Origin: Chloranthus sessilifolius
Lineage: Eukaryota > Streptophyta > Magnoliopsida > Chloranthales > Chloranthaceae
Length of the DNA: 64,000 nt
Assembly (NCBI GenBank): GCA_021018995.1
Contig: CM037588.1
Coordinates: 147,331,725 to 147,395,724 of the forward strand
Reading direction: 5' to 3'
Part shown: positions 13,054-63,470 of the stretch, piece by piece
Position numbering within the stretch: position 1 is the first letter of the stretch
Layout of the letters: the number at the start of each line of letters is the position of its first letter
Position numbers and translations under genes: made by a program
The notes under the pieces: generated by a model
The model's input: only the letters and a program-made list of their open reading frames with translations
What the model was told of the DNA's origin: nothing
The model's database searches: none

Positions 13054-15567
13054 TGTAATACCCTAAAAATTTGAGCGTTTAACTTTGACCTCGGGATCCG
13101 TGCCTGATTAGTCATAGGGTTGACCAAGTGATGGTCAAACAATGAACTCGTAAAGTGATGAACTAATGTGAGGTCGATACGACTTAAGAGTAGTGTACAG
13201 TGTGAGTTAGTGGTCGCATACACCTATCTCTAGTGTATGTGTTTAACACACAAGCTAGAGATGATATAAGGGTTTAATAACCCTAGAATCCTTTTCTTTT
13301 GGTTGTTGAAGAGTTAAGAAGAGAGAGAGAGAGAGGGAGAAAGCAAGAGGAGTTACTGAGGAATGAGTGAATGCAAATCAAAGGGCTAATTTGAGCATTC
13401 ATTGTCGGATTCAAAGCGATTGGGTTGTAAAGCGGAATGATGAAACCCTGGCCATCAAACCCAACAATCAACCCTTTGAAGGATTTATTAAGATAAGTGT
13501 GATTTGATTTCAATACATAGAGAATGGATGAATGAAATATTGTCTAGCATGTGTAAAATCATAGATTAAAGACTTAGAAAAAGAAGGGAAAAGAAAGGGA
13601 AAATTTTTTGGAAGAACAGCCCGAAAGGGGGCTGAATCTGGCCAAATCGATTAATCGAAATTGGGATTCGATTAATCGATTTTGGCCCAGAAGTTGAAAA
13701 GTCATGAGTGCCCGATTTCGATTAATCGAATTAGATTTCGATTAATCGATTTGGATGTTCGATTAATCGATTTGGAAATCAACTAATCGACTGGGTACCT
13801 CTAGTGGCTGGAGAAAGGAGACCTGGGGAAATCGACTAATCGAGTTGGGAAATCGATTAATCAATTTTGGATTTCAATTAATCGATTTGGGATCGACTAA
13901 TCGATTTCAGACTTTCGACCACTCGATTTGAGAATCGACTTCATTATGTTAGAGACTTCGATTAATCGATTTGGGATCGATTAATTGAATTTGAATCTCG
14001 ATTAATCGATTTTGGGAATCGATTAATCGACTTTGACAGTTTTTCTTAACTTTATAATTTTTCTTTAAGATTCATGGAGGGTCTAGGACCTTCTTCATTA
14101 CATCTTTAGTGATGTGTTGCATGTGTTATGATATATCATAAGTGGTACGTGTGAAAGCGAGCACAAGGAGCTGCGTGGAACCTTGATGCTTGGACCATCA
14201 GAAACTTGAGGTAGGGAACACCTTGAACATGTACTTTAATTTCAAGAGCATGTATGTAGTAATATAATTATCATATTTGAAATTGTTTTAAATTACTAAA
14301 AGCTTTGTGAAAATGGGTGTGCGTGTAATACCAAGAATGTGAAAAAGGCATCTGTGTGATGCAAGAGATTAAAATCAAGTAATCTAATAAGAATGAGACA
14401 TCCCCAAGGGATGAGAAAGTAATAAAGGCATCAGGTGTGATACGGGTATGTATACATCCATGGGATGTATATATATGATTGAATAATTACTGTTGAGGCC
14501 TAACTGATATAAGATAGCACACTTACACGGTGAACAACTATGTGTAAAGCACATGTTATTTTTGTTATTTGAGGTTTGATAGGATACCCTACCGACGTGG
14601 CGGGATACCCATGATTGAAGCGGCAGGATATCCGTGACTGGTACGGTGGCCAATCCGTACACTAGTGCGGAGATTTATCCGTAACAGTAAGTACATCCTA
14701 GGGATGTTGAGATGAGTTTTAACCCCGCCGCCTAGTGAAAAGAGGCTTGGGTCATATTCTCAGGGAATACTTTTATAACAACTATCTATTTAGGCGACGA
14801 TGAAGGGTATCTCATCGGGGCTCGATGCTATATTGCTCGGGGATTACTTAAGTTGAAGATTTAAGTTTTGCTTTAGGCATGTTCAGTATCATTCATGATA
14901 AATCAACAGTAAAGTAGAACATGCTAATTACCAGTAAACTTGAATGCAATTCATCAGCTTTTAAACTATTTTCAAGCAATTACATAGACACATCATGCTT
15001 AGAATATCATGGAATATATGTGAGTCTTAATTTATATGTTCATTGTGTTTGTTCCCTATTGAGCTAGGATGTAGCTCACCCTTTAGACTATACGTCGCAG
15101 GTCCATTGATAGTAGCTGTTAAAGCTTCGGGGGACGTAGATCCGGGTGATTTGGATTACGTACCTGGAGACGAGGTGGAGCCTCCACCCGAGGACTTCTA
15201 GGAGACTCTACTGTGTACTTTGGCAGTGAGTAGTTTTTGAGAGCTAGTTGTACGGCTTGGTATGTCAAGCCTTCTTTTTGTTAAACATGTAATTAAATTG
15301 GATAATTCTTTTGGCGAACCATCTGGGGTGATCTGTTTATCACCGATGGTTTGGGTCGGTTCTCTGTTCATGCAGTGGCATGAAAATAGAACTGTCTTTT
15401 GTATATGCCAATTGGACATATTAACCGTTTCCGCTAATATGAGATTAATTGCTTTATTTATCTATTTGTGCTTGTTATACCAATGTTCCATGTATAGTTT
15501 TGGGATGCTGTCTGGAGGACCGTGCTGATGGCACGGGTTTCGGGGTATCAAAATTCGGGCTGTCACA
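13054..15567 (+). repeat. Element A 5' LTR
   Basis: 2514 bp, TG...CA, followed by GT and the primer site. It carries a palindrome array (13645-14034), dyads with a CCNNGGG-type core at 14450-14710 (for example CATCCATGGGATG), and a conserved GAGCTAGGATGTAGCTC dyad at 15061-15077. It is homologous over most of its length to the LTRs of B and, less so, of C and D. Confidence 0.93.
13645..14034. repeat. Element A LTR palindrome array (TCGATTAATCGA)
   Basis: About 14 copies of TCGATTAATCGA or one- to two-base variants, irregularly spaced by 5-40 bases. Flanking bases often extend the dyad (TTCGATTAATCGAA, ATCGATTAATCGAT). Confidence 0.95.
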
Positions 15568-15569
15568 GT

Positions 15570-15581
15570 TGGTATTAAAGC
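15570..15581 (+). promoter_or_regulatory. Element A primer binding site (initiator-Met, mutated)
   Basis: Reads TGGTATTAAAGC where intact copies B and C read TGGTATCAGAGC, complementary to the 3' end of initiator tRNA-Met. Two substitutions are present. It lies two bases after the LTR end. Confidence 0.85.
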
Positions 15582-15670
15582 TTTTTCTTTTAGAAACTCT
15601 GACAATCATTCTTTTATCAGAGCATAGGGACTTCTGCTAATGAAAACTTTGTTTTCACGTGCAGACCGTG

Positions 15671-17580: not shown

Positions 17581-19333
17581 GATCGACACACCTACCACTT
17601 ATCTCGGCAGTCAGGGCCGAGCGATTGATCAGAAAAGGGTGTAGTAGATACTTGGCATTTTTGAAGGAGCATAAAGAGGAGAAGAATGTTACATCTGAGA
17701 TAGCAGTTGTGCGAGACTTCGCCGATGTATTTTCGGAGGAGTTACCCGGATTACCTCCAGAGAGAGAAATAGAATTCACCATCGACTTAGCACCAGGAAT
17801 GGAGCCTGTTTCTAAGGCACCATACAGAATGGCTCCTGCAGAGTTGAAGGAGTTGAAAGAGCAGCTACAAGAGCTAATGGACAAAGGGTTTATTAGAATG
17901 AGCGTGTCTCCATGGGGAGCACCGGTCTTGTTTGTAAAGAAGAAAGATGTGTCAATGCATTTATGCATTGACTATCGACAATTGAACAAACTTACCATCA
18001 AGAATCGATACCCTTTGCCTAGGATAGATGACTTATTCGATCAAATGTAAGGGGTGAAGTATTTTTCCAAGATCGATGAGATCTGGTTACAATCAGTTGA
18101 GAGTCAAGGCAAAGGATATTCAGAAGACTGCATTCAGGACTCGATACGGACACTATGAATTCCTAGTGATGTCGTTTGGATTGACAAATGCCCCGGTGTC
18201 ATTCATGGATTTGATGAATAGGGTGTTTAAACCACACCTGGACTCTTGTGTTGTAGTGTTTGTTGACGACATCCTAATCTATTCAAAATCAGAGGAAGAG
18301 CATGAAAAGCACTTGAGAGTAGCCCTACAGACTCTACGTGAACACCAATTATACGCCAAGCTCAGTAAATGTGAGTTTTGGTTAGAAGAAGTTAGCTTTT
18401 TGGGACATGTCGTCTCTAAGCTTAGTGTCACTGTAGATCCAGCAAAGATCGAAGCAGTAGTGAATTGAGAGCAACCAAAGACAGTGACCGACATCTGTAG
18501 TTTCTTTGGATTAGCAGGTTACTATCGACGTTTGGTTAAGGGTTTTTCAAAAATATCAGGACCACTCACGAGACTTACACCAAAAGATGCAAGGTTTGAA
18601 TGGAGTGAGGCATGCAAGAAGAGTTTTCAAGAACTTAAGAAGAGACTCACTTCAGCTCTAGTGTTAGCTATACCTTCAGGCAGTGGAGGGTTTGCAGTGT
18701 ATAGCGATGCTTCGTATACTGGTTTGGGCTGTGTGCTTAATCAACACAAAAAGGTGATAGCGTATGGGTCGAGACAGTTGAAAGAGCATGAGAAGAATTA
18801 TCCGACACATGACCTGGAATTAGCAGCGGTCATTTTCGCGCTCAAAATTTGGAGACATTATTTGTATGGTGAGACTTTTGAGATTTTCACCGATCAGAAG
18901 AGCCTCAGATATTTGTTTACACAAAAGGAACTAAATATGAGGCAGCGCAGATGGATGGAGTTTCTCAAGGACTATGACTGTTCCATACAGTACCATCCAG
19001 GCAAGGCTAATGTGGTAGCTGATGCCTTGAGTTGGAAGAGTTCAGCTCAATTGGCTACCTTAATTTTGGGTATGCACAGATGGAAACTGTTTGAAGATCT
19101 GGCACTATATGATGCAAACATTGAGTCACAAGCTACAGGAGCCTTCTTGGCTAATATTTCAGTGAGACCGGTGATATTTGAGCATATCCATGAACTACAG
19201 ATGAAAGACCCAGCGCTAACAAAGATTCGTCAAGATGTGACTGAAGGCATTATATCTGAGTTTTCAATCAAGGAGGATGGTTCCTTACTGTTCAAGGGCC
19301 GCCTCTGTATTCCGGACAATGCCGATCTGCGGC
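17581..19333 (+). pseudogene. Element A reverse transcriptase, RNase H and integrase N-terminus
   Basis: RT motifs in order: [58 protein letters not shown], then a TAA (18048) and a frameshift, [17 protein letters not shown], the catalytic FVDD ([12 protein letters not shown]) and [21 protein letters not shown] at 18466 precedes the RNase H domain with [38 protein letters not shown] and [11 protein letters not shown], so all its acidic residues are visible. The integrase N-terminus starts ([15 protein letters not shown]) and is cut at 19333 by element B. The coding sequence resumes at 31928. Confidence 0.92.
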
Positions 19334-20106
19334 TGTGGCAGTCCGAATTTCGATACCCCGAAACCCGTGCCATCAGCACGATCATCTTGACCGTGCCCTT
19401 TAGCTAAGCACGGAACACTGGTATATCAAGCATCAAAAAGTATAATAAACAAAATTGCGAAATTTAAATCTATATTAATTAACTCTCCAAAAGACAGTTC
19501 TACCCTCATGCCTCTACATGAATGAAGAACCGATCCGAACCATCGATGATAGAAATCATCACGGATGGTTCGCCCCAAAAGAATAATCCCATCCATATAT
19601 ATATATACATGGTTTAAACAGAATCAAGGCTTGACATACCAAGCCGTACAAAACTCTCTCTAAAATCTCTCAAAGTGGCACAACGGAGTCCTCTAGAAGA
19701 AATCCTCTGGAGGTGGCTCCAACTCGTCACCGGCCGCAAGGTCCGACTCGCCGGGATCAGCGTCTCCTGAAGCCTCGACAGCTGCTAGTAGTGGACCTGT
19801 GACGTATAGTCTATAGGGTGAGCTACATCCTAGCTCAATAGGGAACAAACACGGTTGAACATATAAATTATGACTCACATATATTCCATGATATGCCATG
19901 CATGATGTATCTATGCAGTTGTTAATGAAACAGTTAAAAAGCATTTCGTTTTACTGTTGATTACTTATATTTTCATTTATTCATGAATAATGCTGAAAAG
20001 GCCTAAAGCAAAACTTAAACTTTCAACTTAAGTAATCCCCGAGCAATATAGCATCGAGCCCCGATGAGATACCCATCATCGTCATCTATATAGACAGTTT
20101 TTAACC

Positions 20107-20499
20107 GTATTCCCTGGGAATACAAATAGTACCCAAGCCCCTTTCCCCTGGGGATTGGTGGCGGGGTTTCACTTGTCTCAATCAACACCCCTGGGGTGTG
20201 CTTACTATGTACGGATAAGCCTCCGCACTGGCCTACGGTTTCGCCGCCGTATCGGTCACGGATATCCTGCCGTGTCAGTCGTGGATATCCCGCCACGTCG
20301 GTGGAGTACCCTATCAAACCTCAAATAACAAAAATATCGGTGCCTTATATATAGTTATTCACTGTGTAAATGTGTTATCTTATATCAGTTAGGCCCTATC
20401 AAACATGATTCAATCCTTGGATACATCCCTGGGATGTATCCATTTACTTGCATCACACCTGATGCTCTTATCTCTTTACTTCTTCATCCCCTGGGGATG
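20107..20499. repeat. Five unlike palindromes sharing a CCTGG core (element B LTR)
   Basis: Seen: GTATTCCCTGGGAATAC (20107-20123), TCCCCTGGGGA (20144-20154), ACACCCCTGGGGTGT (20185-20199), a 23-base dyad with core ACATCCCTGGGATGT (20419-20441) and CATCCCCTGGGGATG (20485-20499). Arms differ but stay complementary. The 5' LTR copy has the same set at 30495-30895. Confidence 0.93.
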
Positions 20500-20816
20500 G
20501 CTCATTATGATTACTCATGTGAATGTCACGCACACACACTTTTCACAAATTCTTAAGAATAACAATTGAATTGAAATCTATATCACTACATACATGCTCT
20601 TGTAAAATAAGGTACATGTTCAAGGTGTTCCCTACCTCAAGTCTTCATTCGATCAATGCATCAAGGTCCCACGTGGCTCCTTGTGCACAAGTCCACACGT
20701 ACCACCTATGGTACCACATAACAGGTAAAACACATCACAAAGGATGTAATAGAGAAGGTATAAGACCCTCCAAGAATCTTAAAGTCAAACCCAAAAGTCA
20801 ACATAATCTATCTCAG

Positions 20817-21380
20817 TCGATTAATCGAATTCCAAAATCGATTAATCAAAGGTCAATATCGATTAATCGAAGTAATTTCGATTAATCGAAATTCTCTGTT
20901 TCGTAAAGTCGATTCTCAGTTCGAACAGTCGAGCTTTCATTCGATTAATCGAATCCAATTTTGATTAATCGAAATTCTCCTTTTCGCAAAGTAAACTCAC
21001 AGTTCCAACAGTCGAGTTTTCATTCGATTAATCGAATCCCATTTCGATTAATCGAAATTCTTCTTTTCGCAAAGTCGACTCACAGTTCGAACAGTCGAGT
21101 TTCACAAGTTGATTAATCGATCCCAAATCGATTAATCGAAAACTAAAATCGATTAATCGAAATCCCATTTCGATTAGTCAATTTTTCCTCAAGTCATTTC
21201 CTCCAACCCCTGGGGTCCACTGGAGGTTCTCAGTCGATTAATCGATCCCCAAATTGATTAATCGAAATCCAAAGTCGATTAATCGAAAACAAATTCGATT
21301 AATCGAAATCGGGGTCCTCTGACCTTTCAACTTCCTAGCCAATTTCGATTAATCGAAACCCAATTTCGATTAATCGAAAT
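20817..21380. repeat. Element B 3' LTR palindrome array (TCGATTAATCGA)
   Basis: About 18 copies, many extended to TTCGATTAATCGAA. It includes a tandem section with the phrase CAGTTCGAACAGTCGAG between palindromes. The other LTR (31213-31539) has lost part of the array. Confidence 0.95.
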
Positions 21381-21961
21381 TGTCAGATTCACCTTCATTT
21401 TGTTCTTCCCAGTCTTCTTCCATACTTTTTCCTCTATTTTTCTAAGCCATTATCCTATGATTTAACCCACATTTAACCACAACTTAACCCCTATAATCTA
21501 TGCATCTTATTTATAAAAAATTTTACCTTGGATAGATCTCAAGTTGATTTCTATCAATAGTTGGAAGGCTAGGGTTTCCAGCTTTGGTTCTAACGGATCC
21601 CTCGCGTCGAATCCGGCGTTTATTGCTTGAATCTCTCTTCCTCAACTAGCATTCACTCCTTGCATTAATCACTCTCTTCACTCTCTCTCTCTTCTTTACT
21701 CTCCTTCAACAACCCAAAATACCCATCTAGGGTTATTAAACCCTTTTATCTATCTCCCTCTTTGTGTGTTGAGCACATACACCGCAGTAGGTGTAAGTGA
21801 CTTCTCATTTACATCACACACCACATAATCACTCAAACTATCACATCTCGTCTGTTCATCACATTCTATGCTAACTCATGATCTCCTGATTGGTCAAACT
21901 TGTGACCAATCGGGCACGAATCCTGAGGTCATAGTTTTGCGTGATTTTTCGGGCTATTACA

Positions 21962-22479: not shown

Positions 22480-23741
22480 ACATCAAAAGTCCATCCTCGG
22501 TTCATCCTCTCGTTGTTGGCCTCCACTCTGAGCCAACACGTCCTCGATAGTAGGGCCGGGATGGGCGGCCTTGTGAGGATAAGGTGGGTGTCGCGGTAGC
22601 AGGTGGGGGTAGGTGGTGTCGGTGAGGCTGCGGTGTGAGAGTGGCCCTCTCCGGATGGCTCTGCTGCTGGCGGTGTGCCCCACCCGCAGGTGGAGTCTGC
22701 TTTGAGGTGGTGGGGTGGTGGCGGTGCTCTGCTTCTTTCTTGCTTTTGAGGCGGGGCGGGACCCGGGCCATAGGGTCGCTTGAGCAAATTATAGCTACGG
22801 GCCCATGAAGACCTAGAATGTCTCACGCGGTCAGTAGCCCTCTCTCATGAGAGATGGCATAAGATGCATCATTGGAGTAGCACTCCAACATGCTCGATAT
22901 AAGGCGAGCATAGGGCATCTTTTCTTTGGGCCGTAGGTTGCCCTTCATCAGCTTCCCCTTTATGTATCTCATCCCCTCAAGGATGAGCATGGTGGCATCA
23001 AACCACCGGCCACAGAAGGCCGAGTAAAGTGCTCGCACCTTCTCCACGCGCTCGGTGTCGTGGCGCATTGGGTAGAGGTTGCACTTGACCACTGAGTCAA
23101 GCATCCACATATATGGTGGAAGGTCAACCCTCTTGATGGAGGAGCCCGACCCCTTCTTGCCATTGGTCATGCGGGTCATGACCTCCTCAAAGCGGGGTTC
23201 CTCCTCAAAGGGTGGGAAGAGAGCGGTCTCCGGGGTGAACTCGAGGTAACACTCGAGTACCTCGTGGATGTGGCGTCGAGTGATCGATAGAGACGCACCT
23301 CAATCTTGGTTATTATGCAATCATCGGTAGGGCCGCCCAGTCTGAGCCCTTGGTAGAATAATCTCACCAATCTAGGGTAGTAAGAACCCGGATTGGTTTG
23401 AGAAGGACGGCGTTATTTAGGTAGTTTCGAGCCCATTGGGTCTCGCCCGGCACATCGGGATCGGTGAAAAGGGTAGGGTCGATGACGTACTCGACCTCAA
23501 AGGTCTTGGCCGCCCACCATTCGTTTGGTTGCTCGACATTGGTGGGTGGTGGTGGCATGGGGGTGGATTCACAGGAAGACTCGCGCGTAGACGCGCTCGT
23601 CGAACCGGAGGTGGTCTCCGATTCCGACGGTGATGGAGTCCTCACCGGCGATGGGGTAGGTGGTGGTGGCGCGGCGTTCTTACGCCTAACCGGTAGCTTG
23701 GAGGTTACCTTCTTCGAAGACAAACGGGTTTTGGGCGGCAT
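22480..23741 (-). pseudogene. Element B extra gene (aORF): putative plant transposon-protein-like domain
   Basis: Sense-strand gene between chromodomain and 3' LTR. The start is ATG 23741 (MPPKTRLSSKK), giving a basic N-terminus, then a Pro/Ser/Thr-rich stretch (PPPPTPSPVRTPSPSESETT). The conserved domain follows: WWAAKTFEVEYVIDPTLF, LVRLFYQGL, GSSIKRVDLPPYMWMLDSVVKCNLYP, FCGRWFDATMLILEGMRYIKGKL and KMPYARLISSMLECY. It ends in a Pro-rich, possibly helical tail. Frameshifts lie near 23370 and 23180, and a stop after GLLTA (22823). The layout resembles the putative plant transposon protein family (PF20167-type) found in plant retroelements, but this is from memory of the pattern. It has no membrane segment or signal peptide, so it is not env-like. 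Function unknown. Confidence 0.8.
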
Positions 23742-23969
23742 TTTGAGAAAATCTAGGGTTTTCTAGTTCAACTTGAAGGGAAAAAACACAAATCTAAGGT
23801 TTACCTTAGGTGTCGATGTGAAAATGGGTGTGAATCGCCGGAAAATCCAAACCCTAGGGCACTGGCTTGTCGGAGAAGAGGAAGAAGGTGAAGCACCAAA
23901 AACCCGAAGCAAGAAAAAATTTTGAATGGGGAATAAAATCCCCAATCTTATATATATATAGCCCGCGGC

Positions 23970-24595
23970 TCGATTAATCAAAATTTTGTTTCGATTAATC
24001 GAAATTCAAAACTAGGTTAAGCCGCGTAAAATCGATTAATCGATTTCCCAAATCGATTAATCGAAAGTCAAATTCGATTAATCAAAAACATTTCGATTAA
24101 TCGAAATCGTATCTGTTAAAAATTTTCAATTTTTGAGCTCATTGGTGCGAGCCAGTCGATTAATCGAAATGTATTTCGATTAATCGAAATTCCAAAATCG
24201 ATTAATCGAATTTAATTTCGATTAATCGAAATCGTGCTGTAACTTCTAATTTTCCAGAATTTCTTAAATTATTCGATTAATCGAATCCATTTCGATAAAT
24301 CGAAATTTCGAAATCGATTAATCGAATTTCACTTCGATTAATCGAAATCGTCCATTTGCTTTCAAATTCTCGTAAGTCCCTTTAGTAAATCGATTAATCG
24401 AAATTTCAAAATCGATTAGTCGATCCCAAATCGATTGATCGAGATTCCAATTCGATCAATCGAAATTTGTCTTCTATGTATATTCTAACTCTCATTCTCA
24501 TTTCCAGTCACTGGCACATGCCAGTCGACTAATCGAACAAAATCGATTAATCGAAATTCCAAATCGATTAATCGATTTGAAATTCGATTAATCGG
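23970..24595. repeat. Element B internal palindrome array in the spacer between chromodomain and aORF
   Basis: About 22 copies of TCGATTAATCGA and close variants, the same motif as in both LTRs of B. Spacing is irregular at 5-60 bases. No reading frame of note crosses it. Confidence 0.95.
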
Positions 24596-29725: not shown

Positions 29726-29727
29726 AC

Positions 29728-31927
29728 TGTGGCAGCCCGGATTTTGACACCCCGAAACCCGTGCCATCAGCACGATCATCTTGACCGTGCCCTTTAGCTA
29801 AGCACGGAACACTGGTATATCAAGCATCAAAAAGTATAATAAACGAAATTGCAGAATTTAAATCTATATTAATTAACTCTCCAAAAGACAGTTCTACCCT
29901 CATGCCTCTACATGAATGGAGAACCGATCCGAACCATCGATGATAGAAATCATCACGGATGGTTCGCCCCAAAAGAATAATCCCATCCATATATATATAT
30001 ACATGGTTTAAACAGAATCAAGGCTTGACATACCAAGCCGTATAAAACTCTCTCTAAAATCTCTCAAAGTGGCACAACGGAGTCCTCTAGAAGAAGTCCT
30101 CTGGAGGTGGCTCCAACTCGTCACCAGCCGCAAGGTCCGACTCGCCGGGATCAGCGTCTCCTGAAGCCTCGGCAGCTGCTAGTAGTGGACCTGCGACGTA
30201 TAGTCTATAGGGTGAGCTACATCCTAGCTCAATAGGGAACAAACACAGTTGAACATATAAATTATGACTCACATATATTCCATGATATGCCATGCATGAT
30301 GTATCTATGCAGTTGTTAATGAAACAGATTAAAAGCATTTCGTTTTACTGTTGATTACTTATATTTTCATTTACTCATGAATGATGCTGAGAAGGCCTAA
30401 GGTAAAACTTAAACTTTCAACTTAAGTAATCCCCGAGCAATATAGCATCGAGCCCCGATGAGATACCCATCATCGTCATCTATATAGACAGTTTTAACCG
30501 TATTCCCTGGGAATACAAATAGTACCCAAGCCCCTTTCCCCTGGGGATTGGTGGCGGGGTTTCACTTGTCTCAATCAACACCCCTGGGGTGTGCTTACTA
30601 TGTACGGATAAGCCTCCGCACTGGCCTACGGTTTTGCCGCCGTATCGGTCACGGATATCCTGCCGTGTCAGTCGTGGATATCCCGCCACGTCGGTGGGGT
30701 ACCCTATCAAACCTCAAATAACAAAAATATCGGTGCCTTACATATAGTTATTCACCGTTTAATTGTGCTATCTTATATCAGTTAGGCCCTATCAAACATG
30801 ATTCAATCCTTGGATACATCCCTGGGATGTATCCATTTACTTGCATCACACCTGATGCCCTTATCTCTTTACTTCTTCATCCCCTGGGGATGGCTTATTA
30901 GAATTTCTCTTATGGATGTCATACGCACACACACTTTTCACAATTCTTAAACAATTAAACATTTGAATGGAAATCTATATCACTACATACATGCTCTTGT
31001 AAAATAAAGTACATGTTCAAGGTGTTCCCTACCTCAAGTCTTCATTCGATCATTGCATCAAGGTCCCACGTGGCTCCTTGTGCACTAGCTCACACGTACC
31101 ACCTATGGTACCACATAACAGGTGAAACACATCACAAAGGATGCAATAAAGAAGGTGTAAGACCCTCCGAGAATCTTAAAGTCAAACCCAAAAGTCAACA
31201 TAATCTATCTCAGTCGATTAATCGAATTCCAAAATCGATTAATCGAAGGTCAATATCGATTAATCGAAGTAATTTCGATTAATCGAAATTCTCTGTTTCG
31301 TAAAGTCGATTCTCAGTTCGAACAGTCGAGCTTTCATTCGATTAATCGAATCCAATTTCGATTAATCGAAATTCTCCTTTTCGCAAAGTAAACTCACAGT
31401 TCGAACAGTCGAGTTTTCATTCGATTAATCGAAATTCTTCTTTTCGCAAAGTCGACTCACAGTTCGAACAGTCGAGTTTCACAAGTTGATTAATCGATCC
31501 CAAATCGATTAATCGAAAACTAAAATCGATTAATCGAAATCCCTTCCAGCTTTGGTTCTAACGGATCCCTCGCGTCGAATCCGGCGTTTATTGCTTGAAT
31601 CTCTCTTCCTCAACTAGCATTCACTCCTTGCATTAATCACTCTCTTCACTCTCTCTCTTCTTTACTCTCCTTCAACAACCCAAAATACCCATCTAGGGTT
31701 ATTAAACCCTTTTATTTATCTCCCTCTTTGTGTGTTGAGCACATACACCGCAGTAGGTGTAAGTGACTTCTCATTTACATCACACACCACATAATCACTC
31801 AAACTATCACATCTCGTCCGTTCATCACATTCTATGCTAACTTATGATCTCCTGATTGGTCAAACTTGTGACCAATCGGGCACGGATCTCGAGGTCATAG
31901 TTTTGCGTGATTTTTCGGGCTATTACA
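29728..31927 (-). repeat. Element B 5' LTR with internal deletions
   Basis: 2200 bp against 2628 bp in the other LTR. Two deletions explain the gap: one of 20 bp between adjacent palindromes (equivalent to 21035-21055) and one of about 409 bp (equivalent to 21167-21575) that removes the end of the array. The rest aligns with few differences. The remaining palindrome array is at 31213-31539. Confidence 0.94.
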
Positions 31928-33513: not shown

Positions 33514-34075
33514 CCGATTAATCAATTTTGGTCGATTAGTCGACTGGCATGCGCCAGTGAGTGAAAATTGGAACAAGGTTCAGAAAAATGGCAAGGTAAA
33601 ATTTTGATTAATCGATTTTGGTTTCGATTAATTGATTTATGTTTTTGATTAATCGATCTGGGGATTCGATTAATCGAATAACTTGAGAATTTTAGAGAAA
33701 CTTAAAGAAATTTTACGATTTTAATTATTCGAAGTAAAATTCGATTATTCGATTTGGGATTTCGATTAATCGAACTGGAGGTTCGACTAATCGAGTAACT
33801 TAAGGATTTTAGAAAAAATTTGAAGGACTGCACGATTTCGATTAATCGAAGTGAATCTCGACTAATCGATTTTAGGATTTCGATTAATCGACTGGCTCAC
33901 GCCAGTGAGCTCCAAAACTTAAAAATTTAAACGGATACGATTTCGATTAATCGAAATGGTTTCGATTAATCGATTTTGAGTTTCGACTAGTCAATTTTGG
34001 AAATCGATTAATTGATTTCGCGGGCCTGAACCTAGTTTTGAATCTCGATTAATCGACTTTGGAAATCGATTAATC
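33514..34075. repeat. Element A internal palindrome array between chromodomain and aORF
   Basis: About 18 copies of TCGATTAATCGA or close variants, the same motif as in A's LTR and in the same place as the array of B. Confidence 0.94.
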
Positions 34076-34323
34076 TAGCCGGAGCCTATATATATAAATT
34101 ATAGGGGATTTCTCCCCATTCGAAATTTATTTGGAAATCTCCTTACGCGCCTTCTTCTTCTTCTCTCTGGCCGACCGAGCAAGCTAGGGTTTTGGGCATT
34201 TCGAGTCGATTTCGAAACGAAATCGCACTACATTGAGTCAAATACCTAAGGTAAAACCCTAGTTTTTGCTTCTTTTCCGTTTCAAACCACATAAACCCTA
34301 GTTTTTGTGAATTTTTACCAAAA

Positions 34324-35352
34324 ATGCCGCCTAAAACGTAGTTGTCTTCGAAGAAGGCAACGTCCAAACTTTCGGTCCAGCATAAGAACGCCGCACTGCC
34401 ACCACCTACCCCATCACCGGTGAGGACTCCATCACCGTCGGCATCGGAGACCACCTCTGGTTCGACGAGCGCAGCTTCGGGCGAGTCTTCACGCGAGTCT
34501 TCGCCCATGCCGCCACCACCCACCAATGTACTATAACCCAATGAATAGTGTGTGGCTAAGACCTTCGAAATAGAGTACATTATCGATACCACATTGTTCA
34601 CAAACCCCGATGTACCGGGCGACACCCAATGGGCTCGTAATTACCTTGTAAAAGCCGGCCTCAGCAATATCTTGAAACCAATCTTTGGGTCCTACTACCC
34701 TAGGTTGGTTCGACTATTTTACCAAGGTCTCATGGATGGACCTACCAACGACATAGTCAAGACCACCATTGAGGGTCGCGACTACACATTCACCCGTCGC
34801 CACAAACACGAGGTCCTTGAGTGTTACCCTCGACTTTGCACCCGAGACCACCCTCTTTCCACCCTTCGAGGAAGAGGTGAGATTTGAAGAAATAATGACT
34901 AGGATGACCAAAGGGAAGAAGGGGTCGGGATCCTCTATTAGGAGAGTCGACCTTCCCCACTACATTTGGATGCTTGATTCAATAATCAAGTGCAACCTTT
35001 ACCCGTTGCGTCACGACACCGAGCGGGTGGAGATGGTGCAGCAGGCATTTTACGCGGCCTTCTGTGGCCGTTGGTTTGATGCCACGATGATCATCCTAGA
35101 GGGGATGAGGTATATCAAGGGCAAGTTGATGAAGGGCTACTTGAGGCCCAAGGAGAAGATGCCCTATGCTCGGCTCATCTCGAGCATGCTGGAGTGTTAT
35201 TCCGATGCTCCAGAATACACTATATCACCCCATGAGGAGAGGGCGACGGACCAAGTGAAGACGTTTTCAAACTCTTCATGGAGCTGTAGCTATAATCTAC
35301 TTAAGCGGACCCTACCGGCTTCGGGTCCCGTACCAGTAACCGTAGCTATAAT
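34324..35352 (+). pseudogene. Element A extra gene (aORF), 3' truncated
   Basis: Same gene as in B, in the same place and sense. It starts MPPKT then TAG, then LSSKKATSKL and the Pro/Ser-rich stretch. The domain follows: KTFEIEYIIDTTLF, YYPRLVRLFYQGL, then a frameshift near 34830, SGSSIRRVDLPHYIWMLDSIIKCNLYPLRH, FCGRWFDATMIILEGMRYIKGKL, KMPYARLISSMLECY and SYNLLKR. The end is lost where a deletion joins it to the LTR palindrome array at about 35352. The breakpoint is marked by the repeated phrase GTAGCTATAAT (35284 and 35343). Confidence 0.82.
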
Positions 35353-36982
35353 CGATTTGGGTTTCGATTAATCGATTAATCGAATTGTATTTCGATTAAT
35401 CGATTTTGGGAATCGATTAATCGACTTTGACAATTTTGCTTAACTTTATAATTTTTCTTTGAGATTCATGGAGGGTCTAGGACCTTCTTCATTACATCTC
35501 TAATGATGTGCTGCATGTGTTATGATGTACCATAGGTGGTACATGTGAAAGCGAGCACAAGGAGCCGTGTGGGACCTTGATGCTTGGACCATCAGAAACT
35601 TGAGGTAGGGAACACCTTGAACATGTACTTTAATTTTAAGAGCATGTATGTAGTGATATAATTATCATATTTGAAGTTGTTTTAAATTACGAAAAGCTTT
35701 GTGAAAATGGGTGTGTGTGTAACACCAAGAATGTGAAAAAGGCATCGGTGTGATGCAAGAGATTAAGATCAAGTAATCTAATAAGAATGAGACATTCCCA
35801 GGGGATGAGAAAGTAATAAAAGCAAGGGAAAGTAATAAAACCATCAGGTGTGATACGGGTATGTATACATCCCAGGGATGTATATATATGATTGAATAAT
35901 TACTGTTGAGACATAGCTGATATAAGATAGCACACTTACATGGTGAACAACTATATGTAAAGAACATGTTATTTTTGTTATTTGAGCTTTGATAGGATAC
36001 TCCACCGAAGTAGCGGGATACTCACGACTGATGCGACAGGATATCCATCACCGCTACGGTGGCCAATCCGTACACCAGTGCGAAGGTTTATCCGTAACAG
36101 TAAGCACATCCCAGGGATGTTGAGATGAGTTTTAACCCCGTCGCCTAGTGAAAAGGGGCTTGGGTCGTATTCCCAGGGAATACTTTTATAACAACTGTCT
36201 ATTTAGGCGACGATGAAGGGTATCTCATCCGGGATCGATGCTATATTGCTCGGGGATTACTTAAATTGAAGATTTAAGTTTTGCTTTAGGCCTGTTCAGT
36301 GTCATTCATGATAAATTAACAGTAAAGTAGAACATGCTAATTACCAGTAAACTTGAATGCAATTTATCAGCTTTTAAACTATTTTCTAGCAATTGTATAG
36401 GTACATCATGCTTAGAATATCATGAAATATATGTGAGTCTTAATTTATATGCTCATTGTGTTTGTTCCCTATTGAGCTAGGATGTAGCTCACCCTTTAGA
36501 CTATACGTCGCAGGTCCATTGATAGCAGCGTTGAGGCTTCGGGGGACGTAGATCCGAGTGATTCGGATTACGTACCTGGAGACGAGGTGGAGCCTCCACT
36601 CGAGGACTTCTTCTAGGAGACTCTGCTGTGTACTTTGACAGAGAGTAGTTTTTGAGAGCTATTTGTACGGCTTGGTATGTCAAGCCTTCTTTTTGTTAAA
36701 CATGTAATTAAATTGGATAATTCTTTTGGCAAACCATCTGGGGTGATCTGTTTATCACCGATGGTTCGGGTCCATTCTCTGTTCATGCAGTGGCATGAAA
36801 GTAGAACTGTCTTTTGCATATGCCAGTTGGGCATATTAACCATTTCCGCTAATATGAGATTAATTGCTTTATTTATTTATTTGTGCTTGTTATACCAATG
36901 TTCCGTGCATAGTTTTGGGACGCGGTCTGGAGGACCGTGCTAATGGCACGGGTTTCGGGGTGCCGAAATCCAAGCTGTCATA
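35353..36982 (+). repeat. Element A 3' LTR, truncated at its 5' end
   Basis: Aligns to the 5' LTR from about 13960 onward; roughly the first 900 bp are missing, with the polypurine tract. Four or five palindromes remain at 35353-35425. It ends CTGTCATA in place of CTGTCACA and is followed by the GAAAT duplication. The conserved dyad is at 36474-36490. Confidence 0.9.
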
Positions 36983-50274: not shown

Positions 50275-53164
50275 TATGACAGCCTAGATTTTCGCATCCA
50301 AAAAATCATGTCATCAGGATCATACTCTGGATGATCCCTATAACAAGACAAAGAATGTCTGCTCATCTAAGAGAAATCAGAGCAGCACTATCAGAATAGG
50401 CAGATCGAGTCATCATATAAGGCTCTAAAAGAAAGGAAAAAGAATAAAACATGCATATATGTAAAATCAAAAGAATATACATCCTCAAAAAGAAATCAAG
50501 AAGAACCATTGGTGATGGACATCAATCACCCAAAACAATGGTTCCCGATAGTGGTTCCTATAAAATGTATACAAATCCAAGTAAAGCATCTATAATAAAT
50601 AATACAGAAGGTGGCCACCAGGCACACAGATAATTCAAAATACAAGTACAGGTCTCAAAACAAACTAATACCCAAGTTGCTAATAGAACTTGTCAGCAGG
50701 GGTGTCAGTATCCTCCTCCTCTGCCTCAGCCTCCGGCTCTGGCCGATAGTCTAGATCGCTCTCAGTGCCAGGAACTCTAGCCTCAGAACCTATTATATTT
50801 AAAACAGGGTGAGCTAGCCATCTAAGCTCAATAGAAGAAATTCAGTTAAATTTGCATCTAAAATATAAAACATGATTTACAGAACATAACTCAGAATAGA
50901 TGATTAGGAACAGAGGATGCAAAGAGAAATAATTAGATGACAGATGCTAAATTTTAAAGAACATAACAGATGCAGAGTGTTAAACATCAGACAGAAGTTT
51001 CAGAGCTTTCAGATGCTATGCATATAATATTTAGTGACTAAAATAATATACTTAAGTAACTCCCGTAAATATAGCACGTGGTAGCTAGATGTGTGCCGAT
51101 GGATAACCCCGACCATCGTCGTTCAATGAATAATTTAGGGTGTTTGCATCAAGCCTCTACTAAGGAGAGCAACTTGTACCATCGGGTTTTCAAATCAGAT
51201 ACACGGATATCCCGTCGTGCCGGTCGTAGGTATCCTACCACGTCAAGGGGATTCGTCGCATGAACTTTAAATCAATACACATAAAGACCTCATAATCAGA
51301 TTACAGAATCAGATGGCAGAAACAGATGACAAAATCAGATAACATAACTTTTATCATATGCAGGCATGCTTTTAAAAGACTGAAATCAGATACAGATGCT
51401 CAAAAAATATACAGTCAAAATCAGATACCAGTTAAGTTAAATTTCCCCTATCTCAGATCAAGTCTTTCTAAGTAAATCTAAAGCTTTCTAAGATGTCCCG
51501 ATCTTGACCTAGGCCATATGTATAGTATACTAAGTGTCAGAATTGTCAGGATACAATTTGACACTGCCCAGTAGTGTTTTTCCCAGAAAACCAAAATAGC
51601 AGAAACTGGATAATTGATCGATCAATCTCATTATTGATCGATCGGATGCCTCACACCTACTCATTCAGAACAAAGGACATCTGATCGATCAATTCCCATT
51701 TGATCGATCAGATTTCCAAGTTGATCGATCAATTTTTATATTCAATCGATCAAACCCATCTTTATCACCTTCACAGAACTGACCTGACTTTGATCGATCA
51801 ATCTCCTATTTGATCGATCAAATCCTCAATTCGATCGATCAATCTCCATGTTTGATCGATCGAGTCAAATTTCCATAAAAACACACCTCATATTTCCAAG
51901 TGTGCTTATAAAATTTGATCGATCAAATCTCTGATTTGATTGATCAATTTTACAGTTCGATCGATCAATTCTCAATTGATCGATCGGTCCCTCATTATAG
52001 AACAGAGGCAAATTTGATCAATCAATCCCTTAATTGATCGATCGATTCCTTAATTTGATCGATCAATCTCCATACTTGATCGATCAGATTTTCAACGTCA
52101 GAAATTTCATAAAAACAAGCCTCCTGTTCTATAGTCTACTTATAAAATTTGATCGATCAAATCTCCTATTTGATCGATCAATCTTACCATTTGATCAATC
52201 AATTCTCAATTGATCAATTAGTTCACACTTGATCGGTCACTTCATTTTCTGATCGATCAGTGCCAAATTCGATCGATCAATTTACCAATTTGATTGATTG
52301 AGCACATCGGGCTCTAACTTCTCAAGAAAAACACCCGTCTTTTTTAAAGGGGCTTTATAAAATTCGATCGATCAACTCTCAAGTTTGATCGATCGGATTA
52401 TAGATTGATCGATCGGATATGACAGTTAAGCTGTCATTAATGGGGTTTGTTGCATTCAAACCCATTTCAACCCTAGCATTTATGATTATCCACGAATCAT
52501 TCAAGCCTCCAATGCACACATATTTAAGACATCAAACTCATATAAAACCCACAATAACTCACCTCTTTTGAAGATTGCTTCTTGGTTCACGGCATCCTAG
52601 GTCCACGAGGGTTTCGGATCTGGATCGGATGGTTTGACACTTTGATCTCTTCGAAGAACCAAAGGTACAACTCTACATTAATACTCAGTGTACTCACGCT
52701 CAGGCATCGACTCCTTCAAGCTCTAGGTCTGACTATCATGAATATGAGGTTCTCTCTCTCACTGGTTTCACAAAAGGAGTGCTCTAGAAATTCGAATCAC
52801 GTACACCTCGTGATGTTTTACAAGTAGGAACCAAACCAGATTAAAGAAGGAGATGAAGAGAGGTGAAGTTTTAATCTCTTCCTTCCCTTATAAGCTATCT
52901 AATGGAAATATCCAGGATATTTCCACTTCTAATACTTCAATCTAGTGTTGAGCGCACACACACCACACATGTATACAACATTCGATAAAAGATCTAATCG
53001 CATCTCAGGCATGTGTCACAAGTGACGCATCACTTCACACTCTCACAGATTAAAAGTCTTCATATTAATAATCATATATTTTAAATTTTTAAATTTGTCT
53101 CAATTTTTGTGCCAAGCACGGATACCAAAGCAGTCAGAAGGTTCGAGAATTTAGGGTCGTTACA
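50275..53164 (-). repeat. Element C 3' LTR
   Basis: 2890 bp with a polypurine tract at its start. It holds the palindrome array 51613-52418, a dyad-rich block (GGATATCC, CGTGCCGG, GGTATCCTACCACG at 51200-51245) that corresponds to blocks in A and B, and the conserved dyad GAGCTAGCCATCTAAGCTC at 50811-50829. Confidence 0.94.
51613..52418. repeat. Element C 3' LTR palindrome array (TTGATCGATCAA)
   Basis: About 30 copies of TTGATCGATCAA or close variants, often extended (ATTGATCGATCAAT), in the LTR position that holds TCGATTAATCGA in A and B. Confidence 0.94.
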
Positions 53165-53368: not shown

Positions 53369-54805
53369 TTATAAAATAACATAAAAGGTATAGTGATTAC
53401 CTGTCGGTTGAGTTGATGATGAACCTGGCTTCGAAGGTACATCTGGTGGGCTCGGTTTGGGTGGCTTTGTGCGATAGTCATAGGGATACAATGTGTGCAG
53501 ACGGGCGTGTCTGAGCATAGGAGTGGCAGTGGTAGCATAGGCGTGCTGCATCAGTAGCTCGAGCATCCCCTCGTGATAATCCAATTGTCGATGTACCTGA
53601 CAATGGAACTCTTGCATCTCGTCCAATCTCTTGTGCACCCACTTGTTGTTCTCGTTCATGACGGCGACGAGGGATTCGAGCGTAAGGGTGGAAGGCTCGG
53701 AATGGCGTGTAGCAGCAGCACGTGTAGGTCGACGTGAAGGAGTAGGGGCAGGTCTAGAAGATGCCTCGGGTTGAGGTGGAAGGTCAGGTTGTGCCTCCCC
53801 CACATCAGGAGCTCTCTCAGCAGCCTCTGCTCCCGCCTCTACTGGAGGAACCTCCTAATCATCAGGTAGTCGCTTGACCAAAAGATTATAACACTTGGTC
53901 CAGTCTTTGAGCAAAAAGACTTTAATATTGTCGTTTCTCCTTGGCTCTCCGGGAGCCATGCTATAGGCCTCACGCACAGAGTTATACTGCTCTACCATGC
54001 GTGTGATCAGGCGTGCATAGGGCATCTCTCCATTCAGCTTTGCCTTCCTCGTCTTCTAATCAAAGGCATCAAGCATGCCGTCAATGACGACATCGGTGAG
54101 GGAGAACCAATGGTTCTCAAAGGCGGAAAATAAAAATTATCGTACGATGCCCGTACACTCTGGCCAATGTAAAAAGGGATAAATGGCACACTTGACATAG
54201 GTGTCAAGCATCTATAGGTTGTCAGGTAGTTGGGCCCTCTTGATTGATTGGCCCGATCCATGCAGTCCATGTGTCATCTTAGCGATGACATCCTCAAAAG
54301 AGACGTCCTTGATGTAGGGTGCCGCCAAACTGCACATCTCCACGTACCCGAATGGGCATTGCATAGCGACGGAGACGTGGAATTGGTTGAATCTATATTC
54401 CAACCCATCGATCATGGTAACCATTTGATGATGGCTACCTCCCCGTCGAAGGTGTTGATAGAATAGACATACTATCCTAGGGCAATAGTAGTCATGGAAT
54501 GGTTTGAGCATGGGTTTAAGCCCTAGTTTACCGATATACTCGATCGCCCATGTCATTTTGGGACGATCGTCGAATAGAGCGGGGGTGAACTCGTATTCGG
54601 ACAAAAAGCTTTTGGTATTCCACCCATCCTTCGAAAGTTCCCATTCTATGAGTGGCAGTTGGGGTGGTTGAACGGGTGGCATAGGTGGCACGTGTGGTGC
54701 CACGGGCGGTACAAGGGGTTGTACTACCAGTTCTACGAGCGGGGTAGGTACACGTACCCGCGACATGGGAACCTTGCGTGAAGCGTTCTTCGTGCGCGGT
54801 CCCAT
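53369..54805 (-). pseudogene. Element C extra gene (aORF)
   Basis: Start ATG 54805 (MGPRTKNASRK), basic then Pro/Val-rich (PPVAPHVPPMPPVQPP). Domain: WNTKSFLSEYEFTPALF, YYCPRIVCLFYQHL, GSGQSIKRAQLPDNL, then after a stop MLDTYVKCAIYPF, and after further frame changes KLNGEMPYARLITRM and KCYNLLVKRLPDD. The C-terminus (53369-53803) is Pro-rich, then a probable coiled coil (LESLVAVMNENNKWVHKRLDEM, VHRQLDYHEGML) and a Pro-rich end. It is the best view of the tail of this gene. It resembles the A and B genes at the same motifs but is clearly diverged, so the gene is old in this lineage. Function unknown. Confidence 0.82.
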
Positions 54806-55039: not shown

Positions 55040-55374
55040 TTTGATCAATCAATGCTCAATTGATCGATTGGATTTGAACATGAAAAAGCCCTAACCCGAC
55101 AGATTGATTACTCAATCCTCTAGGTTGATCGACCGGACTTCAAAATTGATCGATCAATTGGTCCAATTGATCGATTGAATATGTACAAAACCCAAAATCC
55201 ACTTTATCGATCAATCCCTAAATTGATCGATCGGATTAACAGTCGATCGATCAAGTATCTAATTTGATCGATCGGATTGGTCTAAATTGAAATTTCAAGA
55301 TTGATCGATCAACTAGTCAGGTTGATCGATCGGATTCATATTTGATCGATCAAATCATTACTTTGATCTATTGA
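55040..55374. repeat. Element C internal palindrome array between chromodomain and aORF
   Basis: About 13 copies of TTGATCGATCAA or variants, matching C's LTR array and not the motif of A and B. Confidence 0.93.
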
Positions 55375-55569
55375 ATCTGACAGCAAAGCTATCCTCCAAA
55401 AATGCAGGTGTAAATGACCTGAGAGTATCGCCATAGTTCAACGGTGATACTACAATGTTATATGATTACGTTAAGCTATGCACACATGCTTAACATATAT
55501 GCTCAAGTGATCTAACAAGGACACAGTACAAATAAATAATTTAAACTGAATATCGAACTTACCTCGCCT

Positions 55570-60459: not shown

Positions 60460-60551
60460 ACTAGTCTGTCATTATAAAAATAATAACACTGATTAGTACA
60501 TAGATTATAAAAATAATTCAACCTGAACTCGATGTTCAACTTAAATCTTAG

Positions 60552-60563
60552 GCTCTGATACCA
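60552..60563 (-). promoter_or_regulatory. Element C primer binding site (initiator-Met)
   Basis: The minus strand reads TGGTATCAGAGC two bases after the LTR end, as in B. Confidence 0.94.
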
Positions 60564-60565
60564 AC

Positions 60566-63470
60566 TGTGGCAACCCAAATTTTTACACTCGAAAGCCTAT
60601 ATCATCAGGATCATACTCTGGATGATCCCCATAACAAGATAAAGAATGTCTGCTCATCTAGCAGAAATCAGAGCAGACACTATCAGAATAGGCAGATCAA
60701 GTCATCATATAAGGATCTAAAAGAAAGGAAAGAGAATAAAATATGCATATATATAAAATCAAAAGAATATACATCCTCAAAAAGAAATCAAGAAGAACCA
60801 CTAGTGATGGACATCCATCACCCAAAAAAATGGTTCCCGATAGTAGTTCCTATAGAATGTATACGAATACAAAGCATCTATAGTAAATAACAGAAGGTGG
60901 CCACTAGGCGCACAAATAATCCAAAATACAAGTACAGGTCTCAAAACAAACTAATATCCAAGCTGCTAATAGAACTCGTCAGCAGGGGTGTCAATATTCT
61001 CCTCCTCTGCCTCAGCCTCCCGCTATGGCTGATAGTCTGGATCGCTCTCAGTGCCAGGAACTCTAGCCTCAGAGCCTATTATATTTAAAACAAGGTGAGC
61101 TAACCATCTAAGCTCAACAGAAGAAATTCAGTTAAATTTGCATCTAAAATGTAAAACATGATTTGCATAACATAACTCAGAATAGATGATTAGGAATAGA
61201 GGATGCAGACATAAATAATCAGATGGCAGATGCTAAATTTTAAAGAACAGAACAGATGCAGAGTGTCAAACATCAGATAGAAGTTTCAAAGCTTTCAGAT
61301 GCTATGCATATAGTATTTAGTGACTTAAATAATTTACTTAAGTAACTCCCATGAATATAGCACATGGTAGTCAGATGTGTGCCGATAGGTAACTTCGACC
61401 ATCGTCGTTCAATGAATAATTTAGAGTGTTTGCATCAAGCCTCTACTAAGGAGAGCAACTTGTGCCATCTGGTTTTCAAATCAGATACACGGATATCCGG
61501 CTGTACCGGTTGTGGGTATCCTGTCACATCAAGGGGATTCGTCACATGAACTTTAAATCAATACACATAAAGACCTCAGAATCAGATTACAGAATTAGAT
61601 GGAGAAAACAAATGACAGAATCAGATAACATAACTTTTATCATATGCAGGCATGCTTTTAAAAGACGGAAATCAGATACAGATGCTCAGAAAATATGCAA
61701 TCAAAATCATATATCAATTAAGTTGAATTTCCCCTACCTTAGATCAAGTCTTTCTAAGCAAATCTAAAGCTTTCTAAGATGTCCTGATCTTGACCTAGAC
61801 CATACGTATAGTATACTAAGTGTCAGAATTGTTAGGATACAATTTGGCACACTGCCCAGTAGTGTTTTTCCTAGAAAATCAAAACAACAAAAACAGGATA
61901 ATTGATCGATCAATCTCCTTGTTTGTTTGATCAATCTCATTATTGATCGATCGGACGCCTCACACCTACTCATTAAGAATAGAGGACATCTGATCGATCA
62001 ATTCTCATTTGATCGATCGAATTTCCAAATTGATCGATCAATTTTCAAATTCGATCGATCAATCCCATATTTATCACCAGCACAGAACTGACCTGACTTT
62101 GATCGATCAATCTCCTATTTGATCGATCAAATCCTCAATTCGATTGATCAATCTCCATGATTGATCGATCGGGTCAAATTTTCATAAAAACACACCTTCT
62201 GTTTCCAAGTGTGCTTATAAAATTTGATCAATCAATTTCACAGTTCGATCGATCAATTCTCAATTGATCGATCAGTTCCTCATTACAGAACAGAGGCAAA
62301 TTTGATCGATCAATCCCTTAATTGATTGGTCGATTCCTTAATTTGATCGATCAATCCTCATACTTGATCGATCGGATTTTTAAAGTCGGAAATTTTAGAA
62401 AAACAGGCCTCATATTCTATGGTCTACTTATAAATTTTGATCGATCAAATCTCCTATTTGATCGATCAATCTTACCGTTCGATCGATTAATTCTCAATTG
62501 ATCGATTAGTTCACACTTGATCGGTCACTTCATTTTCTGATCGACCTGTGTCAAATTCAATCAATCAATTTACTAGTTTGATCGATCGAGCACATCGGGC
62601 TCCAACTTCTCAAGAAAAACACCCTTCTGTTTTAAAGGGACTTTATAAAATTCGATCGATCAACTCCCAAGTTTGATCGATTGCATTACAGATTGATCGA
62701 TCAATTCTCAAATTATTGATCGGATATGACAGTTAAGCTGTCATTAATGGGGTTTGTTGAATTCAAACCCATATCAACCCTAGCTTTTATGATTCTCCAC
62801 GAATCATTCAAGCCTCCAATACACACATATTTAAGACATCAACCTCATATAAAACCCACAATAACTCACCTCTTTTAAAGATTCCTTCTTGGTTCACGGC
62901 ATCCTAGGTCCACGAGAGTTTCGAATCCGGATCGGATGGTTTGACGCTTTGAGCTCTCCAAAGAACAAAAGGCACAACTCTACATTAATACTCAGAGTAC
63001 TCACACTCAGGCATCGACTCCTTCAAGCTCTAGGTCCGACTATCATGAATATGAGGCTCTCTCTCTCACTGGTTTCACAAAAGGAGTGCTCTAGAAATTC
63101 GAATCACGTACACCGAGTGATCTTTTGCAGGTAGGAACCAAACCAGATTAGAAGGAGATGAAGAGAGGTGAAGTTTCAATCTCTTCCTTCCCTTATAAGC
63201 TATCTAATGTAAATATTCAGGATATTTCCACTTCTATTACTTCGCTCCGGTGCTGAGCGCACACACACCACACATGTATACAACATCCGATAAAGGATCT
63301 AATCGCATCTTAGACATGTGTCGCAAGTGGCACATTACTTCACACACTCACAGATTAAAAGTCTTCATATTAATAATCATATATTTTAAAATTTTAAATT
63401 TGTCTTGATTTCCATGCCAAGCACAGATACCAAAGCAGTCAGAAGGTTTCGAGAATTTAGGGTCGTTACA
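60566..63470 (-). repeat. Element C 5' LTR
   Basis: 2905 bp, same structure as the left copy, with the palindrome array at 61900-62722 and the conserved dyad at about 61097-61115. The array differs from the left copy by single palindromes gained or lost (for example an extra one at 61925-61945, one missing near 62225). Confidence 0.95.
61900..62722. repeat. Element C 5' LTR palindrome array (TTGATCGATCAA)
   Basis: About 28 copies of the motif and variants, matching 51613-52418. Several copies differ between the two LTRs by paired changes that alter one arm only. Confidence 0.93.

Follow-up and report, generated by a model that had tools for sequence, protein, structure and literature searches.

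The window analyzed here, the 64,000 bp stretch C5:147331725-147395724 of the 2.17-Gb Chloranthus sessilifolius genome (assembly GCA_021018995.1, contig CM037588.1), contains three Ty3/gypsy-type long terminal repeat (LTR) retrotransposons, A, B, and C. In each of them, arrays of a short palindrome (dyad) were found at two distant places, the LTRs and the spacer before an additional open reading frame (aORF). As a first-pass annotation of this DNA had claimed, the LTR and spacer motifs agreed inside each element and differed between C and A/B. We consider it probable, by a modest measure, that the aORF protein of each family binds the dyads of that family, both in the LTR and in front of the aORF itself, with anti-silencing or activation as the outcome.

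The elements, A (+ strand), interrupted by B (- strand), and C (- strand), were recognized by LTR pairs, Pfam matches, and tblastn. The layout was the same in all three: pol was followed by the spacer, the sense-strand aORF, and the 3' LTR. The LTRs were located as follows:

13050..15568, + strand, 5' LTR of A; positions 13976-15565 repeat 35371-36980 (92.1% identity over 1612 columns), and the start, TGTAATACCC, was set by eye.
19333..21961, - strand, 3' LTR of B, which is nested in A; it repeats 29727-31927 with 95.7% and 97.9% identity flanking a length difference in the array.
29727..31927, - strand, 5' LTR of B, from the LTR repeat comparison.
50308..53164, - strand, 3' LTR of C; it repeats 60599-63470 (90.1% identity over 2902 columns).
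60599..63470, - strand, 5' LTR of C, from the LTR repeat comparison.

All 55 exact copies of TCGATTAATCGA in the window lay in LTRs or pre-aORF spacers of A/B, and all 20 exact copies of TTGATCGATCAA lay in LTRs or the pre-aORF spacer of C, which confirmed the arrays listed in the earlier annotation for these places. The arrays were as follows:

13645..14034, + strand, LTR array of A (TCGATTAATCGA), 8 exact dyads and 14 with up to two mismatches; it lies about 380 bp downstream of a TATA-like stretch seen by eye near 13264.
33514..34075, + strand, spacer array of A before the aORF, 7 exact dyads and 17 with up to two mismatches.
35364..35424, + strand, remnant LTR array heading the truncated 3' LTR of A, 4 dyads; this array was absent from the earlier list.
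20817..21380, - strand, 3' LTR array of B, 13 exact dyads.
23970..24595, - strand, spacer array of B, 14 exact dyads and 22 with up to one mismatch.
31213..31539, - strand, 5' LTR array of B, 9 exact dyads.
51613..52418, - strand, 3' LTR array of C (TTGATCGATCAA), 8 exact dyads and 20 with up to one mismatch.
55040..55374, - strand, spacer array of C, 3 exact dyads and 7 with up to one mismatch.
61900..62722, - strand, 5' LTR array of C, 9 exact dyads and 17 with up to one mismatch.

Exact copies of TCGATTAATCGA spanned 13647-14030 in the A LTR, 20817-21377 and 31214-31537 in the B LTRs, 23991-24575 in the B spacer, 33666-34056 in the A spacer, and 35364-35424 in the remnant; those of TTGATCGATCAA spanned 51614-52181 and 61902-62704 in the C LTRs and 55146-55353 in the C spacer. 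Once degenerate copies were counted, the spacer arrays reached approximately the limits given earlier. The two words were the most frequent 12 bp palindromes of the window, the next ones being TA repeats with 5 copies. With up to one mismatch, the motif was present 7-22 times per LTR or spacer in B, C, and a further element, G, whereas gag-pol and the aORF with its 3' region contained 0 copies each. The genome contained 241,617 copies of TCGATTAATCGA versus 55 of the reversed word, and 65,226 copies of TTGATCGATCAA versus 317. Chance or low complexity as the source of the arrays was ruled out by these genome counts and by the shuffles described below. In the region 35330-35424, the 3' LTR of A starts inside its own dyad array, directly behind the aORF; the border of this deletion falls within the array, and arrays may be recombination points.

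Matching between the two places was scored as the number of 10-mers shared by the whole 5' LTR and the whole spacer of A, B, C, and two elements from chromosome C1 (G and D), with 500 dinucleotide shuffles of the spacer as the null. Within motif classes, 95-137 10-mers were shared in the nine A/B/G cells, 86 in C, and 17 in D, and none of the 500 shuffles reached any of these 11 cells. In contrast, the 14 between-class cells shared only 1-22 10-mers, and each was reached by 42-477 of the 500 shuffles. The sharing matrix was block-diagonal over the five elements in three motif classes; these count as three independent classes, not five, because A, B, and G form one motif class. A smaller run (30 shuffles, four elements) agreed with this result. 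As to the comparison that the earlier annotation had proposed, the arrays matched within elements and within motif classes but not between classes, and the third family, D, repeated the rule with an unrelated motif.

D (C1:232195-246636; LTRs 89.3% identical) was a bystander in 200 kb of chromosome C1 that had been sampled around TCGATTAATCGA places, a sample biased toward array-bearing copies. Neither the TCGATTAATCGA nor the TTGATCGATCAA motif was present in its 5' LTR or in its spacer. Instead, both LTRs and the spacer carried CTCGCGCGAG-type sites, some as CTCGCTCGCGCGAG, at irregular spacing: with up to one mismatch, there were 4 sites in the 5' LTR, 3 in the 3' LTR, and 2 in the spacer, versus 0 in gag-pol, in the aORF region, and in the 21.4 kb of non-element sequence counted in the same block. 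The same sample yielded nine more A/B-type LTRs, all with an array, although these say nothing on array-less LTRs because the sample was chosen around TCGATTAATCGA. Element G (C1, 54.1-65.0 kb) carried the array in both LTRs and the spacer, and element H (C1, about 19-30 kb) carried it in both LTRs. C-like LTRs with 20 copies (L029/L030) and 7 copies (L031) of TGATCGATCA were found with no aORF, and 30 kb of C3 contained no aORF of this kind and no 10 bp palindrome with more than 3 copies (TA-only palindromes uncounted); these three stretches thus gave no further pair of motif and protein.

Spacing was measured with up to two mismatches in eight arrays, leaving out the A remnant. Among the 135 neighbour distances, 94 were 18-22 bp (21 bp being the commonest), which is about two helical turns; the remainder comprised 10 of 36-42 bp, 13 of 61-65 bp, and 18 others (47-56, 72-75, 95, and 105 bp). 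This distribution indicated that the dyads were mostly grouped in two to four, about two helical turns apart. When one half-site was used as the anchor, the other half was kept at 0.71-0.88 in A/B (n = 161) and 0.60-0.98 in C (n = 93), counts in which a perfect dyad figures twice because both strands were read; the other positions were kept at 0.29-0.60 and 0.30-0.69, respectively. Because the second half-site was kept better than the other positions, the dyad persists to a greater degree than the 21 bp unit. In the aligned A, B, and G spacers, dyads were 89-99% identical versus 73-86% for linkers, a contrast that is an upper estimate because the aligner may pair nonorthologous dyads. Constraint on the dyads was thus seen by alignment in the A/B class and by half-sites in both A/B and C. 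Given that dyads stood above linkers in these spacers and that the synonymous divergence (dS) between A/B-class aORF pieces was about 0.6-1.8, constraint on the dyads, not fresh duplication, is the favoured interpretation. In 15 A/B-type arrays, which held 146 exact sites, 43 of the 74 one-mismatch sites had C replaced by T or G replaced by A at one of the two CpGs, the largest other class being T-to-C at position 5 (16 sites); decay of methylated copies would produce such a pattern.

The aORF followed pol in A, B, C, D, G, and H as determined by tblastn, and its frame was broken in the three copies of the window:

34324..35371, + strand, aORF of A, frame broken; pieces 34342-34536, 34549-34887, and 34757-35371.
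22823..23741, - strand, aORF of B, frame broken; pieces 23364-23762 and 22823-23299, the second with a weak Transposase_32 match (E 1.1e-3).
53372..54805, - strand, aORF of C, with in-frame stops; pieces 54212-55009, 53855-54055, and 53369-53854 were kept apart.

Identity to the 492-aa open frame of H was 71-84% for the pieces of A, B, and G, 37-40% for C, and 34-35% for D, and the D aORF shared 31-42% identity with the aORFs of A, B, and C (tblastn). In this small set of cases aORF relatedness tracked the motif: A, B, G, and H share one motif, and C and D each have a different one. The ratio of nonsynonymous to synonymous divergence (dN/dS) was 0.086-0.158 in all nine scorable comparisons, which were within the A/B class (A, B, G, and H); four comparisons with C or D were saturated. 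The aORF of the A/B class is under purifying selection. A weak match to Pfam Transposase_32 (PF20167) was obtained for five of the six aORFs, with the best score in the H frame (E 9.9e-7, 29.3 bits) and lower ones in G (3.2e-6), B (1.1e-3), D (0.021), and A (0.075); other Pfam matches were weak and unrelated. The region behind the Transposase_32-like domain was proline-rich with a helix-like stretch (by eye), and no DNA-binding domain could be named in the protein. A search for homologues of a C aORF piece outside the genome returned 207 candidates, none at E 0.001, from a collection of uncertain plant coverage; no homologue of the H frame was found in viral contigs, and the best solved-structure match of a C piece had an E value of 1.8. 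The pattern CCNTAYGCNMGNYTNAT, built from these aORFs, matched all six and had no other match in the 264 kb scanned.

The position of the arrays relative to TATA-like sequences was inspected by eye. Two boxes were located in the spacers:

34083..34100, + strand, TATA-like box tatatatataaat, following the spacer array of A.
23947..23960, - strand, TATA-like box tatatatatataag, following the spacer array of B.

In the A and B spacers, the array was followed within about 25 bp by the TATA-like box and then by a pyrimidine-rich stretch and the aORF start; D was similar, and no TATA was recognized behind the C spacer array. In the A and B LTRs, the array sat behind a TATA-like stretch. A TATA-like stretch with a GGGTTTAA..ACCC-like dyad behind it was also seen in the A LTR (~13264-13290), the B LTR (~31700), and the pre-aORF region of D (L018 ~2500); because this dyad is present in both, the LTR and the pre-aORF region may have more than arrays in common.

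Three other accounts, based on host factors, on array exchange, or on a role as RNA, all appear weaker than binding by the aORF protein. Repeated boxes for host factors have a precedent in plant LTRs (Tnt1), and an array before a TATA-like box resembles an upstream activating region; host transcription factors could therefore bind the dyads, each family having recruited a different factor for both regulatory regions. We regard this as unlikely, however, since the genome would need three dyad-binding factors, each used twice by its family, the LTR arrays lie behind the TATA-like stretch, and it would be left unexplained why the matching region is the one that precedes a gene of the element.

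Even less probable is that the LTR and spacer copies within an element exchange sequence by gene conversion, template switching, or recombination, without any binding protein. The two LTRs of B do differ in array length, the 3' LTR of A is truncated at the array, and short tandem units recombine easily. Nevertheless, across A, B, and G, each kind of array, LTR or spacer, aligned with its own kind, flanks included, the linkers were more diverged than the dyads, and the D sites were few, irregularly spaced, and placed in otherwise differing sequence. A recent local duplication, by which one array would have been copied to the second place, was ruled out for A/B/G, where each array with its flanks aligned to its counterpart elsewhere, and appears unlikely for D given its nontandem sites.

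The aORF protein might instead bind the dyads as a repressor, a copy-number control, or a targeting factor. Autorepression would fit arrays that lie upstream of the protein's own gene, and no observation here separates activation from repression, yet a proliferative role is favoured by the high copy number, with 241,617 exact dyads, and by the parallel with VANC proteins; although this argument is weak, we give a repressor little credence. A role of the palindromes as RNA, such as RNA-RNA kissing for genomic RNA dimerization or packaging, is very improbable: both arrays would be in the genomic RNA and palindromes can pair between two copies, but the 18-22 bp spacing suits DNA helical phase, and the position before a TATA-like box calls for no such role.

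Binding of own-family dyads by the aORF protein is the simplest account because it covers the matching, the constraint, the spacing, the position, and the conserved protein. Each retrotransposon family would then carry a cis/trans self-recognition system. The sense-strand aORF between pol and the 3' LTR would probably be transcribed from its own promoter, and its protein would enter the nucleus and bind the family dyad, probably as a dimer, side by side on one helix face. The dyads would be arrayed in two regulatory places, one at the head of every LTR and one upstream of the aORF, and binding would keep both places open against DNA methylation and silencing (or would activate them), with feedback on the aORF. 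As the specificity of the protein drifts, both arrays must follow, and LTR and spacer would therefore be matched within a family and different between families. The promoter, the nuclear location, the identity of the binder, its dimerization, and the anti-silencing outcome are what we infer from this arrangement. The earlier annotation had suggested that the arrays are kept matched by selection, by exchange, or by an element-encoded binding protein; the matching stands and constraint on the dyads is favoured, while the aORF as the gene for the binder is plausible.

Several observations weigh against this account. No single promoter role suits both places, because the LTR arrays lie behind and the spacer arrays before a TATA-like stretch, and 18 of the 135 distances fell outside 18-22, 36-42, and 61-65 bp. 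No aORF reached the curated PF20167 cut-off (45 bits; best, 29.3 bits), and Transposase_32 was absent from all three C pieces. A predicted structure of an aORF piece from the window had a pLDDT of 42.9 and was discarded. The motif-protein pairs seen (n = 3) are too few for a cophylogeny test. In G, gag and reverse transcriptase (RT) were undetectable by tblastn, and H had no spacer array, which was lost together with the pol end. D had few exact CTCGCGCGAG sites (1 in the 5' LTR, 0 in the 3' LTR, and 2 in the spacer), and with 2 mismatches 3 stray sites appeared elsewhere. Arrays of two other palindromes, CAATCGATTG and CACCTAGGTG, were present in sampled DNA where tblastn saw no such aORF. 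Finally, hhalign gave no match between the aORF and the PMD protein of a Mutator-like element (MULE E, below), a comparison of low power (a 9-row alignment with pieces versus a single sequence).

The first-pass annotation knew of no described system of this kind, but the VANC/VANDAL system of Arabidopsis has been described, though in DNA transposons (PMC5735166). VANC binds family-specific tandem motifs and causes methylation loss; these motifs are short, often tandem, lie in introns or upstream regions, and differ between related families, and their unit number changes fast (PMC5735166). The likeness to this anti-silencing system lies in an extra element-encoded protein and in family-specific motif arrays in the element's own noncoding DNA (PMC5735166, PMC10398659), and such a short motif, arrayed in noncoding regions, was found here. 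In contrast to VANDALs, which are DNA transposons whose VANC proteins carry DUF1985 and DUF287, the present elements are LTR retrotransposons with a weakly Transposase_32-like protein. The VANC21 motif, YAGTATTAY, is nonpalindromic (PMC5735166), whereas perfect CG-containing dyads occur here in the LTRs and one internal region. The dyad step in A, B, and C is about two helical turns. Among the matches listed in a literature search of titles and abstract starts, none concerned an LTR retrotransposon whose LTR and spacer carry matching motif arrays.

Additional ORFs themselves have precedents. Sunflower Tekay and Athila are Ty3/gypsy elements with an aORF, and the sense aORF of Athila 14 is partly Transposase_32 (PF20167)-like with a predicted nuclear signal; the sunflower Tekay aORF, however, lies 5' of gag-pol and resembles no known domain, whereas the aORF here lies 3' of pol, and the term "palindrom" is absent from the main text of that study (PMC11728184). 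In Retand and Grande the aORF likewise lies behind pol and before the 3' LTR, about half of the Retand elements studied carry tandem repeats in that region, the Grande aORF has its own promoter, and DNA binding and a regulatory role have been suggested for these aORFs (PMC11963269, PMC7264820). Unlike those described here, they are antisense, with TRP28 (PF04195) in Retand, and the available parts of these two papers report no LTR-spacer motif match (PMC11963269, PMC7264820).

MULE E (C1:1735001-1765000; L027, L019) contained the transposase parts DBD_Tnp_Mut and SWIM, a PMD-like protein, and, outside ORFs of at least 100 aa, dyad arrays at three places:

L027:7242-7400, L027:9213-9461, and L019:2600-2850, arrays of ATCGGCCGAT-type dyads, mostly at 20 bp steps.

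The steps were 19-20 or about 40 bp, and once 107 bp. Its VANC-type domains were below cut-off (PMD, 34.5 bits against 34.9; DUF1985, E 0.057), coiled-coil-like matches had an E value of about 0.06, and a solved-structure search with the MULE pieces gave a best E of 0.78 and otherwise no match. Judged by these sub-cut-off domains, MULE E resembles VANC-bearing, VANDAL-like elements. It differs from the LTR elements in being a DNA transposon with another protein family and more uniform linkers. The presence of such arrays in the same genome counts in favour of the binding account.

We propose, tentatively and with less assurance than the binding itself, that LTR retrotransposons have evolved sequence-specific self-recognition (anti-silencing), apparently on a separate path from VANDALs and using a different protein family, in which the protein and a palindromic target matched at two distant places change together in each family. 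If this is true, self-recognition with coevolving targets arose at least two times in plant transposons, one genome holds both kinds, and a natural set of proteins with differing dyad specificities is at hand. Because the matched cis array gives each protein a specific predicted target, the role of the additional ORFs of plant LTR retrotransposons becomes testable with one binding assay per family.

The class of the elements was assigned by their domains. An LTR pair with gag, RT/RNase H, and integrase in order was found in B and C, and likewise in A, interrupted by B, and in D, interrupted by an LTR, identifying them as Ty3/gypsy LTR retrotransposons. B gave Pfam matches to gag, zinc knuckle, integrase zinc-binding, and Tf2-1-like SH3 domains; RNase H was matched in A and weakly in C, and the remaining parts were placed by tblastn with the proteins of B and A. 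With LTRs, gag, RNase H, and integrase parts instead of a MULE transposase, the elements are not VANDAL-type Mutator-like DNA transposons, and their aORFs, with only sub-cut-off Transposase_32 and unrelated weak Pfam matches, were not recognized as members of the DUF1985/DUF287 (VANC) family. The earlier labels "Tekay" and "chromodomain" were not confirmed, as Pfam gave 0 chromodomain matches among the six ORFs scanned and a Tf2-1-like SH3 domain followed the integrase.

Three further repeats were observed. At L031:1572-2017, upstream of a C-like LTR, CACCTAGGTG palindromes, 7 of them exact, formed an array with many intervals of about 30 bp. At L020:2677-3035 (block position 22677-23035), CAATCGATTG palindromes (6 exact) were found within longer tandem units. 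An 84 bp tandem repeat with 4.4 copies was present at 37873-38230 of the window, outside the dyad arrays.

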